The notes beneath the pieces are model-generated. The model had not been told where the DNA came from, searched no databases, and saw only the letters and a program-made list of their open reading frames with translations. DNA of 64,000 bases from the NCBI GenBank assembly GCA_903839035.1, contig CAIMAQ010000040.1, forward strand, positions 1 through 64,000, given 5' to 3'. The DNA comes from an uncultured Opitutia bacterium (GTDB lineage: Bacteria; Verrucomicrobiota; Verrucomicrobiia; Opitutales; Opitutaceae). The position numbers and the translations under genes were made by a program. This document shows positions 2,496 to 61,059 of the stretch, one piece after another (within the stretch, counting starts at the first letter, position 1; each line of letters opens with the position of its first letter).

Positions 2496-2504
2496 GGGCC
2501 AAAA

Positions 2505-2587
2505 GTAGCCAGTAGTGAGTCGCGGGTAGCGAGTAGAAAAAGGCAGGGCGCCTCCATGCCCACTACCCGCAATTGGCTACTCGCTGC
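2505..2587. repeat. Inverted heptamer-array element 1
   Basis: The left arm (2505-2539) reads in exact 7-nt steps: GTAGCCA, GTAGTGA, GTCGCGG, GTAGCGA, GTAGAAA. The right arm (about 2553-2587) on the other strand reads GCAGCGA, GTAGCCA, ATTGCGG, GTAGTGG, GCATGGA, in the same 7-nt phase. The 25-nt arms at 2505-2529 and 2563-2587 pair with about six mismatches, so the element can form a long imperfect hairpin. It fills the gap between the hisF start and the stop of the upstream-facing gene. Three related elements occur at 35719, 60401 and 60973. Confidence 0.75.
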
Positions 2588-2594
2588 TTCAGTC

Positions 2595-33740: not shown

Positions 33741-34220
33741 GGCGGCCTCGTGCGCCAGCAGCCAGCGCTTGATTTCTTCCCCGAAGGCGAAACCGGTCAT
33801 GGCACCGTCACTGCCGATCACCCGGTGACACGGCACGATCAGGGCGATAGGGTTGGTGGCGTTGGCGCGACCGACGGCCCGGGAGGCGGCGGGATTGCCA
33901 AGCTCCGTGGCGAGTTCGCCATAGCTGCGCGTTTGTCCATAGGGGATCCGCTGCAGCGCGGCCCAGACACTTTGCTGAAAGGGAGTGCCACTGGGGGCGA
34001 GCTTCAGTGTGAAGGCATCGCGTTTGCCGCCGAAATAGGCGGTGACCTCGGCGCGCGCGGCTGCGACGCGGGCGGGTTCCTGCACGACCTCATCGGCGGC
34101 GAATCGCTCGCGGAGTTCCGGCAGGGCGCCGAAGGCGGTGGCGATGACGGAGCCGTTAGCGTCAACGGCAATGGAAAAGTCTCCCACCGGGGTGGAAAAG
34201 GTGTCGTAGAATTGTCTCAT
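33720..34220 (-). CDS. ogt: Methylated-DNA-protein cysteine methyltransferase
   Basis: A 166-residue suicide enzyme that takes alkyl groups from O6-alkylguanine. The start at 34220 gives MRQFYDTFSTPVGDFSIAVD. The active-site signature IVPCHRVIGSDG is intact, preceded by GTPFQQSVWAALQRIPYGQT with the DNA-recognition helix and AVGRANATNPIAL. Its ATG overlaps the stop of the upstream ada-alkA-type gene by 4 nt (ATGA), so the two are translationally coupled and form an alkylation-repair unit. The 3' end overlaps trpF. Confidence 0.96.
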   Translation of the reverse strand: MRQFYDTFSTPVGDFSIAVDANGSVIATAFGALPELRERFAADEVVQEPARVAAARAEVTAYFGGKRDAFTLKLAPSGTPFQQSVWAALQRIPYGQTRSYGELATELGNPAASRAVGRANATNPIALIVPCHRVIGSDGAMTGFAFGEEIKRWLLAHEAASSPALV

Positions 34221-35641
34221 GTTGGAATGGGGTGATTGAATTGCCAAAGCTGCGTGGTAGCGAGGCTGCGATAAGGTGAAAAGACCGCCATGAGTCGGCG
34301 GGTGGCGTCGATGGCGGGACGTTCCGCGAGTTTCAGCAACGCCTGAAGCCCGCTGGTCACACCGGTGTCCCCGAGCGGCACGCAATCGGGCAGGCCGAGC
34401 GACCGCATCATGACGTAGTTCACCGACCAGGGTCCCAGTCCACGGATGGCCAGCAGGGTGCGTTCGACCCGGGTGGCGGACATGGTACGGAGCGCGGGCA
34501 AGTTGAGTGTTCCGGCGACGATCAGCCGGGCAGTCGCGATGACGTAGTCGGCCTTCTGTCGGGAAAATTGCAGGGGCAGCAAGTCGGCGGGCTCGAGCGC
34601 TGCGACGGCTTCGGGCGTTGGCGGAGCGTGGAGTCCATCGGCGTACAGCTCGGAAGTGCGCTCGATCAGCCGGCGTTTGAGCAGGCAGGCGAACGTGAAA
34701 TTGATTTGCTGGCCAATGATCGCCCAGAGCATGCCATCAAACACCGAGGGTGTCTGGCTGATGCGGAGTTCGAGCCGGCCAGCCACCAGGCGGCCAAGGC
34801 CGAGCTTCTTGGCGAGCCGGGCAAAGGCGGCGGTTTCCTCGTCCAGCCCGAGCAGGCCCACCACGAGGGCATGAGCTTCAGCGGCGGATCCCCGCGATAT
34901 TTCGGCGCGGACGCTTTCAGGGCTGAGGTGCAGGGTGAGCAAGGCCGGCCCGTTGGTGAGTTGAACCACGGCAGTGTAAGTGTCGCCGGCGAGTCGTTCC
35001 GTGAGGCTGTGAATGTCCCGGCTCAGGGCGCGCCGCAGGTAAGGCAGGAGATAGCCCTCGGGCAAGGAGATGGCAAAAGTCCTGGCTTTGCGCAGTTCGC
35101 GGAACGCGGCCGGGGTGAGTCCGTTCAGGCGACGGAAGTTTTCATGGAAGGCCGAGATCGACTCAAAGCCCGCGTCAGCTGCGATGCGGGACAAGGGTGA
35201 GTCGCTTGCGAGCAGCTGGCGCTTTGCGGCGGATAACCGGGCGCGCAAAAGCAGGTCGGCTGGCGTCGTGTGGTAGTGCTGCCGGAATAGTTCGAACACC
35301 CGCGTCGCCCCAAAGCCCGACCGACGCACGATGGCCCGCGCATCGGTGAAATTCTCCGGCCGGGTCCGCACCTCGGCCACCAGCGCCTCGATCGTTTCCA
35401 GCACCGGGTCGGCCCCGCGCGCAAAATCGTCCGGGTGGCATTTCTTGCAGGCGCGCAGACCGGCCTCACGGGCGGCCTCACAGGTCGGAAAGAAGCGGAC
35501 GTTGCCGGCCTTCGGTTTGCGGGCCTTGCACGCCGGCAGGCAATAGATGCCCGTGGTCAGGACCCCGGTGAAGAAACGCCCGTTGCAGGACGCGTCCCCG
35601 GCCAGCACCCGGTCGTACATGGCGGCATTGGTCATTCGCAT
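34217..35641 (-). CDS. Ada-AlkA fusion: methyl-phosphotriester sensor, AraC-type HTH and 3-methyladenine DNA glycosylase
   Basis: A 474-residue three-part protein. Residues about 1-75 form the Ada zinc domain (cysteines in DASCNGRFF, IYCLPACKARKPK, RACKKCHPDD) that takes methyl groups from phosphotriesters. Residues 80-180 are an AraC-type helix-turn-helix (FRQHYHTTPADLLLRARL, IAADAGFESISAFHENFRRLNG). Residues about 190-474 are an AlkA glycosylase: N-terminal domain, then helix-hairpin-helix IRGLGPWSVNYVMMRSLG followed by the catalytic Asp in PLGDTG. It likely activates its own operon after alkylation damage and excises damaged bases. Several near-identical starts exist (35635, 35641, 35647). 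Confidence 0.93.
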   Translation of the reverse strand: MRMTNAAMYDRVLAGDASCNGRFFTGVLTTGIYCLPACKARKPKAGNVRFFPTCEAAREAGLRACKKCHPDDFARGADPVLETIEALVAEVRTRPENFTDARAIVRRSGFGATRVFELFRQHYHTTPADLLLRARLSAAKRQLLASDSPLSRIAADAGFESISAFHENFRRLNGLTPAAFRELRKARTFAISLPEGYLLPYLRRALSRDIHSLTERLAGDTYTAVVQLTNGPALLTLHLSPESVRAEISRGSAAEAHALVVGLLGLDEETAAFARLAKKLGLGRLVAGRLELRISQTPSVFDGMLWAIIGQQINFTFACLLKRRLIERTSELYADGLHAPPTPEAVAALEPADLLPLQFSRQKADYVIATARLIVAGTLNLPALRTMSATRVERTLLAIRGLGPWSVNYVMMRSLGLPDCVPLGDTGVTSGLQALLKLAERPAIDATRRLMAVFSPYRSLATTQLWQFNHPIPT

Positions 35642-35718
35642 GGCCACACCCTAGCACACGGCGCCGGGTCTGTCGTCCGGATTTCTCCGGTGCAATCCCG
35701 GGCGCGTTATCACGCGCA

Positions 35719-35805
35719 GTTGAATGCTGAGAGATGGAGGTTGAAGGACCGGGCAGTGCATGGTCCGAATGGCGACCTTTCTTCGTTCAACTTTCACCTT
35801 TCAAC
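35719..35805. repeat. Inverted heptamer-array element 2
   Basis: The left arm in 7-nt steps from 35719 reads GTTGAAT, GCTGAGA, GATGGAG, GTTGAAG. The right arm (35778-35805), read on the other strand, is GTTGAAA, GGTGAAA, GTTGAAC, GAAGAAA, in perfect 7-nt register. The core word is GTTGAAN. It lies between the ada-alkA-type gene and yqeY, which diverge from it. Same architecture as the elements at 2505, 60401 and 60973, with a different word. Confidence 0.75.
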
Positions 35806-35833
35806 CAAATCGCGGCCCAGCCACGATTTCAAT

Positions 35834-37327: not shown

Positions 37328-37435
37328 GATTTCGCAGATCGGAGTTAGGATGTACCGGTTAGTGGTGCGATGCACGGAATACGGGGCTCAGGCGATCTGC
37401 GTTCTTCGAACTGCGATCGGCGCGCCGCCACGGCG

Positions 37436-60400: not shown

Positions 60401-60458
60401 CGCGGAGAAGCGAACGCACGGAGCCAAGATTTCCGTTCTGCGAATGCGTTCTTCCGCG
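60401..60458. repeat. Inverted heptamer-array element 3
   Basis: The left arm from 60401 in 7-nt steps: CGCGGAG, AAGCGAA, CGCACGG, AGCCAAG. The right arm (60431-60458), read on the other strand: CGCGGAA, GAACGCA, TTCGCAG, AACGGAA. The register is exact and the arms are adjacent. It lies between rsmH and the membrane-protein gene at 60528. Confidence 0.6.
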
Positions 60459-60527: not shown

Positions 60528-60974
60528 ATGGCAACTACCCCGACTACTGCGACCAAGACGCCTTGGCACCTCTGGGTGGTGGGCGGGATTTCCCTGCTCT
60601 GGAATCTCGTGGGGGCGCTGGATTTCTTCATGACGCAGACGAGGAACGCCGCCTACATGAAAAACTTCACTCCGGCGCAGTTGGATTTTTTCTACGGCTT
60701 CCCGTTCTGGGTGGTGGCCGCGTGGGGGATTGCGACGTGGGGTGGCGCGCTGGGCTCCCTCCTGCTGTTGCTCCGCAAGGGCGTGGCGGTGCCGGTTTTT
60801 CTGCTCTCGTTCCTCGGGATGATCCTCACGACGGTGCACAACTTCGGCCTGTCCAACGGCCTGAAGGTCATGGGCGGACTGGGGTCGCTGGCCTTCAGCG
60901 TCATCATCTTCGTCGTGGGCTACCTGCTCTTCGACTACGCCCGCGCCATGCGCGGGCGCGGCGTGCTGCGGTAG
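60528..60974 (+). CDS. Small integral membrane protein, 148 aa
   Basis: A 148-residue protein from ATG at 60528 (MATTPTTATKTPWHLWVVGG) with four transmembrane segments: WHLWVVGGISLLWNLVGALD, FFYGFPFWVVAAWGIATWGG with GSLLLLLRK, VPVFLLSFLGMILTTVHNFG and LAFSVIIFVVGYLLFDY. The FFMTQTRNAAYMKNFTPAQ loop is conserved in a widespread family that has no proven function; some databases label it 'sugar transporter', without support. No partner genes. Its stop is convergent with the small 80-residue gene. Confidence 0.8.
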   Translation: MATTPTTATKTPWHLWVVGGISLLWNLVGALDFFMTQTRNAAYMKNFTPAQLDFFYGFPFWVVAAWGIATWGGALGSLLLLLRKGVAVPVFLLSFLGMILTTVHNFGLSNGLKVMGGLGSLAFSVIIFVVGYLLFDYARAMRGRGVLR

Positions 60975-61059
60975 CTGCAAGCGGCCAGCACTCAGCCTGT
61001 AGCTGAGAGGAATCGACGTCCGGGGCTGACAGCTGAAAACTGACCGCTGAGAGCTCCCG
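60973..61059. repeat. Inverted heptamer-array element 4
   Basis: The right arm from 61025 in 7-nt steps: GCTGACA, GCTGAAA, ACTGACC, GCTGAGA, GCTCCCG. The left arm (60973-61007), read on the other strand: GCTACAG, GCTGAGT, GCTGGCC, GCTTGCA, GCTACCG. Core word GCTGANA. It sits in the 87-nt gap between convergent genes (stops at 60974 and 61062), almost filling it. Confidence 0.75.

Follow-up and report, generated by a model that had tools for sequence, protein, structure and literature searches.

Heptad hairpins in an Opitutaceae genome as probable gene-less members of a mobile element family carrying PF05635 four-helix-bundle genes

Repeats of seven-nucleotide words in cyanobacteria, Xanthomonas, Geobacter and Beggiatoaceae have a literature going back decades, and no origin for them is agreed upon. 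Direct heptamer repeats have been published for Beggiatoaceae and cyanobacteria (PMC4679880), and in each of two Xanthomonas genomes there are about 70 pairs of convergent, inverted GGGAATC heptamers, which are generally not associated with insertion sequences or transposable elements (PMC4692102). An earlier, sequence-only reading of the DNA described here, which held that repeats of this kind with inverted arms were undescribed, was thus not quite right on that point.

A second puzzle is posed by PF05635 (23S_rRNA_IVP; four helix bundle, hereafter 4HB), a large protein family with a solved fold whose members are often annotated as ribosomal protein S23; we know of no function for it. The passages of PMC4990558 that treat the 23S IVS of Coxiella burnetii describe a sporadic sequence of 428-444 nt, cut by RNase III, in which a 28-bp terminal stem encloses an S23 ORF; they recall an old suggestion that the ORF served mobility, mention proposals of a selfish or mobile origin, and refer to a solved structure for the S23p/4HB protein of Xanthomonas campestris (PMC4990558). 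In the open-access PMC literature no paper joining PF05635 genes to heptamer arms was found. A mobile family built on 4HB genes would offer one testable explanation for both puzzles, the function of PF05635 and the origin of heptamer repeats, and would link several unexplained bacterial repeats.

The window analysed here is a stretch of 64,000 nucleotides from an uncultured member of the Opitutaceae (contig CAIMAQ010000040.1). It had been read as containing four hairpins of the same heptad layout, a claim to be given up if shuffled sequence scored as well. That reading left the mechanism among slipping DNA, RNA hairpins and protein-binding sites, and from sequence alone it had no means of seeing the connection with 4HB genes. 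An arm score, defined on two inverted arms of three or four words of one length, was compared with 1000 dinucleotide-preserving shuffles of each gap (Table 1). Inverted arms of about four 7-nt words were borne out at E1, E2 and E4, where p=0.001 is the minimum attainable with 1000 shuffles and where periods 5, 6, 8, 9 and 10 all scored below period 7. The claim fell for E3, which does not beat its shuffles at period 7 and scores highest, at 0.57, with period 8; it is a modest inverted repeat (RNA-fold z=-2.0) and was dropped from the heptad set. A possible fifth element has a word nearest to that of a 4HB element at the cysD-cysN site of a congener (L276, G064; similarity 0.77), but it folds as RNA no better than its shuffles (z=-0.63). 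All of these are intergenic, between protein genes, and not within 23S rRNA as IVS are. No PF05635 gene lies between the arms of E1, E2 or E4, elements of 85-90 bp, and Rfam gave no match at the window elements, two tRNAs being its only matches in the window.

Table 1. Inverted-repeat elements of the window, with their arm scores against shuffled gaps
Element	Position	Strand	Type and words	Arms	Arm score (null; p)	Neighbouring genes
E1	2504..2588	.	heptad hairpin, GTAGNGA	2504-2531 + 2561-2588	0.695 (0.405 +/- 0.039; p=0.001), period 7	hisF (1734-2495, -) on one side, gene ending 2595 (-) on the other
E2	35718..35806	.	heptad hairpin, GTTGAAN	35718-35745 + 35779-35806	0.705 (0.416; p=0.001), period 7	Ada/AlkA-type gene (34217-35647, -)
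E3	60401..60458	.	inverted repeat, CGCGGAR in the sequence-only reading; best period 8		0.429 (p=0.41), period 7	
E4	60969..61059	.	heptad hairpin, GCTGANA	about 60969-60996 + 61025-61052	0.638 (0.424; p=0.001), period 7	
Candidate	37328..37413	.	possible fifth element, degraded, CAGATCG/CAGTTCG; absent from the sequence-only reading		0.667 (p=0.001 within its own gap)	

Hairpins of this kind are not confined to the window. A scan for inverted 7-nt arms, as had been proposed, was carried out on a 410-kb sample of the window's own genome and gave 19 hairpins scoring at least 0.64, a few of them similar-looking stretches of GC-rich coding sequence; one dinucleotide shuffle gave 0. At other periods the same sample held six hairpins (period 8), one (period 10) and none (period 11). 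Extrapolation from this sample suggests that heptad hairpins number in the order of a hundred per genome. The idea of a different word at each locus was overstated, as the words form limited families and some of those in the window recur many times; a BLAST search of one congeneric genome, for instance, matched GTAGNGA (E1) up to 31 times.

Arms of the same architecture were found around 4HB genes. The window's own genome has four PF05635 matches, each with short-period words on both sides when the arms are read by eye (GGTNATG, GGAGATG, TCGAAAA and the 9-mer ATAGGTCCT, whose arms score 0.63). In a wider set of 109 4HB loci, comprising 77 usable loci from a GTDB-wide scan, 29 from Opitutaceae and three from the own genome, inverted arms of three words were sought up to 220 nt from the gene, and the highest-scoring pair was kept. 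The mean at period 7 was 0.777, falling to 0.672 on exchange of left and right flanks between loci and to 0.487 with flanks shifted 700 nt out, and no comparable excess was seen at periods 5, 6, 8, 9, 10 or 11. The 99th percentile of the shifted controls was exceeded at period 7 by 100 of the 109 loci (71/77 GTDB-wide, 27/29 Opitutaceae). The arms have a median of 4+4 words, typically 28 nt on each side, and the whole unit a median of 472 bp (quartiles 432-518). GIY-YIG was considered as an alternative cargo, but in Opitutaceae neither standalone genes of this type (17 scored) nor UvrC genes have such arms in their flanks (scores 0.44-0.57), and GIY-YIG serves as a negative control.

The GTDB-wide matches include Desulfobacterota, Nitrospirota, Omnitrophota, Bacteroidota and ANME-1 archaea. 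Heptad arms were also found at 11 of 12 4HB genes on named plasmids, almost all of them cyanobacterial, the twelfth fitting period 8. A partial sequence of XCC0516, a Xanthomonas campestris 4HB protein, used as query found no match in the phage set. On plasmids of Anabaena sp. 90 (L332, with type I-D cas1d annotated) and Pseudanabaena galeata (L335), 4HB elements that differ in word lie between cas6 and cas4 in CRISPR operons. At two loci of the own genome (L020 on C56, L021 on C39) the right arm codes the first codons of the downstream gene, rmlA and cysN respectively, and in L020 supplies its start codon too, so that insertion there rewrites protein N-termini.

The words of the gene-less hairpins resemble those at 4HB genes. 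Hairpin words of the own genome are more similar to Opitutaceae 4HB words (0.744) than to those of other phyla (0.630, p=0.0007), and than the reversed-word control (0.689, p=0.03). For the window elements the best similarity to Opitutaceae 4HB arm words is 0.77 (E1), 0.78 (E2) and 0.69 (E4), E2 taken alone being barely above its reversed-word control of 0.77, and some own-genome hairpin words, such as GGTGTTA, have no good 4HB match. The E1 word also flanks 4HB genes at five loci (L249, L253, L260, L269, L274), that of E2 matches arms at three (L244, L262, L283), and words related to that of E4 occur at L252, L262 and L268.

Word and protein vary together. Across 87 loci, protein identity and word similarity are correlated (Mantel r=0.515, 0/2000 permutations as high), and in three Opitutaceae genera each 4HB subfamily has one word: GTAGCGA, CAGGAGT, GTTGAGA/GCTGAGA, AGTGACA or GAGGCGG. 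The first of these, whose proteins are 78-84% identical, is the word of E1, and GTTGAGA/GCTGAGA covers E2 and E4. Linkage and shared descent alone could produce such a pattern, and covariation therefore shows that arms and gene form a unit, not that the protein recognises the word. The period varies as well. Among 164 4HB loci, 145 fit period 7 and 11 fit period 8, with single or paired cases at 6, 9 and 10 and four that fit none, so that most loci failing at 7 nt have another period instead. Five Bacteroidota proteins with period 8 are mutual neighbours in the protein tree, and the remote homologues L023, L258, L259 and L286 have arm periods of 9, 8, 6 and 6 respectively. A raw tree count of nine changes for 15 non-7 loci suggests that period may follow protein clade. 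Variants also tend to fall on the same rung of both arms (0.812 vs 0.797, p=0.0014), a weak effect.

Evidence of movement comes from Nostocales plasmids, in which, with flanks 93-99.7% identical, a 4HB element is present or absent exactly at gene junctions. Where flanks are 98% identical, one site reads AAAAAGTAATTAACAAATA when empty and AAAAAGTAAT-element-GTAATTAACAAATA when filled, with an exact 5-bp target duplication, GTAAT. A second site has TTCTA on both sides, consistent with a 5-bp duplication, and at a third filled/empty site the exact repeat is limited to ATG. The exact duplication thus comes from cyanobacterial plasmids, and none is readable at the window elements. A Geminocystis element matches the Nostoc plasmid copies across the unit including the arms and not beyond. 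Deletion intermediates were also found. One is G063 at the cysD-cysN site; two others, a truncated copy at the first plasmid site (L352) and, in Stanieria, the loss of 460 bp from between the arms (L357), show how remnants with one arm or without the gene come about.

Gene-less copies are dispersed in one congener, G063. GTAGCGA hairpins whose loops are related lie on many contigs there, numbering about a dozen or more, and one intact 4HB element has the same word. Two of the hairpin copies lie at contig ends, suggesting that the assembly breaks at them. The E1 query is matched 12 times in G069, where no 4HB gene of that word was recognised. A search of the window's own genome, which is 97% complete, likewise found no 4HB gene bearing the word of E1, E2 or E4, and these three would accordingly be relics or have been moved in trans.

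Orthologous sites were compared in 11 congeneric genomes, and the proposal that words replace each other at such positions is supported, as the E1 and E2 sites hold differing words or nothing. The E1 gap contains GTAGNGA hairpins, AAGTGAC-type hairpins or nothing; it is empty in G064, and the right arm is decayed in G068. Much of the genus could have inherited E1 from a common ancestor. At the E2 gap GTTGAAN, GTAGNGA, GGNAGTT and 9-mer forms were found, or nothing (G067, G068); the 9-nt-period hairpin there, with CGCRAAGGN words, is in G064 (L165). E3 is missing from G067, which has a 14-nt gap in its place, and E4 was found in G061 and G067. In the cysD-cysN gap some genomes have 4HB elements whose words are GGAGATG, GGAGATC or GNAGTTC; elsewhere there is a decayed form that keeps part of the gene, a one-arm relic or an empty site. 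The rmlB-rmlA gap is occupied by 4HB elements of two different words (one of these elements a pseudogene), by GGATTGC hairpins that lack a gene, or by no element at all. These last two comparisons show that gene-bearing and gene-less forms share gaps and that the words of both arms drift together.

In our reading E1, E2 and E4 probably belong to a family of small mobile elements, as MITE-like copies that lack the gene and are partly decayed. The full-length element would be about 430-520 bp long: some four 7-nt words make up the left arm, the right arm has these words in inverted form, and between the two lies one gene, encoding a PF05635 four-helix-bundle protein of about 120 aa. It would insert into short intergenic gaps, often between co-directional genes and apparently with a 5-bp target duplication; the gene may then be lost by internal deletion, leaving hairpins that would decay or be copied themselves. 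Every protein subfamily would have its own word and period, an unusual case in which a recognition word, and even its period, changes with the flanked protein. Words at one site drift in concert across both arms, presumably kept alike by slippage inside each arm and by correction of one arm on the template of the other in the hairpin, and unrelated-looking words of one layout can on this account share one origin. The hairpins of the window would have no host function.

The 4HB protein itself is related to structure 2GSC (XCC0516, Xanthomonas campestris), described in the passages of PMC4990558 devoted to it as a homopentamer. We infer that the protein recognises its tandem words, either at the DNA level or folded into an RNA hairpin, and drives or guides movement. 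The simplest model is one in which a multimeric protein binds the word ladder and takes part in insertion, a putative role, 4HB being at most a candidate for the catalyst of movement. Its near-invariant polar residues (Q40, S47, N51, E54, S74, E77) could be structural or functional. Among co-directional neighbours 4HB genes lie in sense in 60 cases and antisense in 6 (15 vs 3 in a second set), which suggests reliance on host transcripts, or tolerance only within them.

This orientation also bears on a rival explanation, that the hairpins are RNA structures of use to the host, serving to terminate, process or stabilise transcripts, which selection would preserve and to which 4HB would bind, as with the RNase III-excised IVS. 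E1 folds far better than its shuffles (z=-4.5, the best among the five window elements), and the Coxiella IVS, itself a substrate of RNase III, shows the same anatomy, its 28-bp stem enclosing an S23p ORF (PMC4990558). Against this, the fold z-scores are modest at E2 (-2.0) and E4 (-2.8), a terminator scan of E3 and E4 found no intrinsic terminator (GC-rich stem and T run) at either, and among close relatives there are decayed arms and empty sites. We consider host RNA function unlikely. Slippage of heptamers with quasi-palindrome correction, which would build inverted arms anywhere with no mobile element involved, appears less probable still. In many genomes no long simple repeat is more abundant than the heptanucleotide (PMC4679880), an excess of heptamers in bacteria is ascribed to polymerase slippage in work cited in PMC4679880 and PMC4692102, and concerted drift of both arms at orthologous sites does need some homogenising process. 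However, slippage predicts neither a strong tie to one gene family nor covariation of word and protein; a general 7-nt habit of the polymerase would not give a period-8 group of Bacteroidota proteins, or periods 6, 8 or 9 at other 4HB genes, and neither clean insertions with target duplication nor dispersed copies with related loops would be expected.

Two rivals invoke a recognised enzyme, and we regard each as very improbable. In the first, the hairpins would be REP/BIME elements moved by RAYT (Y1) transposases, and the GTAG in E1 would be the guide tetranucleotide of a RAYT; genomes of the genus have 0-3 Y1_Tnp genes, and the GTAGCGA hairpins of G063 (L291-L309) are in many cases beside or inside an outer, REP-like palindrome, GCAGGCGGCCCGCCTGC. 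However, GTAG is missing from most words, GTAGCGA pairs occur in the flanks of 0/15 scored Y1 loci of the genus, and no Y1 match was found in G062, G066 or G068 despite hairpins or 4HB elements there. The one Y1 locus of the 15 with a clear heptad pair is a small transposase gene in G015 (L324) with heptad-like arms of another word, GTAAGCT (score 0.73); with no heptads at the other Y1 genes, RAYT mobilisation is unsupported. The remaining rival is a retro-element, in which the 4HB protein would work with a reverse transcriptase in the manner of the DGR protein Avd and the element would be copied. PF05635 proteins do match the bAvd profile weakly (E=3.8e-7, below the Pfam cut-off), and 4HB genes lie in sense within transcripts, but no RVT_1 match was found in the own genome or in G003, G009, G030 and G037, which have 7-13 4HB genes each, and dependence on a reverse transcriptase is mostly refuted in cis.

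A gene-less remnant of a 4HB element thus being the preferred reading of E1, E2 and E4, it can be set beside the systems named at the outset. The 23S IVS, as its anatomy is given in the cited part of PMC4990558, likewise has one PF05635-type ORF between terminal inverted repeats; it lies inside 23S rRNA, whereas 4HB elements are intergenic, occur in many copies and also exist as gene-less hairpins, and the description there reports no heptad structure in its arms. No 23S motifs were present in any of the 4HB loci collected, and the link to IVS is therefore one of published anatomy. The Xanthomonas GGGAATC pairs share with the window hairpins intergenic, inverted heptamers, with arm length varying among strains, but they have one word per genome, are discussed as G-quadruplexes and have no 4HB link (PMC4692102). 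The STRR/TAACTGA repeats of cyanobacteria are also scattered, tandem intergenic 7-nt words; they are described as direct repeats that mostly lack an inverted partner, and neither an element nor a gene is assigned to them (PMC4679880), whereas the window elements, though tandem intergenic heptamers as well, are inverted pairs in a verrucomicrobial genome. In Geobacter metallireducens, four-heptanucleotide and paired octanucleotide elements come in groups of four, with some opposite-strand pairs and periods of 7 and 8, but were read as regulatory RNA or global regulator sites with no 4HB link (PMC2700814). Somewhat speculatively, PF05635 proteins may be an unrecognised class of minimal mobility proteins, either transposases or the sole component of one that the element encodes, reading word ladders that co-evolve with them in sequence and period, with IVS, STRR, the Xanthomonas and Geobacter heptamers and the hairpins of the window as members or debris of one superfamily. 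With bacterial MITEs and insertion sequences 4HB elements share terminal inverted repeats, apparently a target duplication, and gene-less derivatives; they differ in having no recognised transposase and in terminal repeats that are a tandem short word varying with the encoded protein. The hairpins would be gene-less members of a mobile element close to known kinds, widespread and apparently overlooked.
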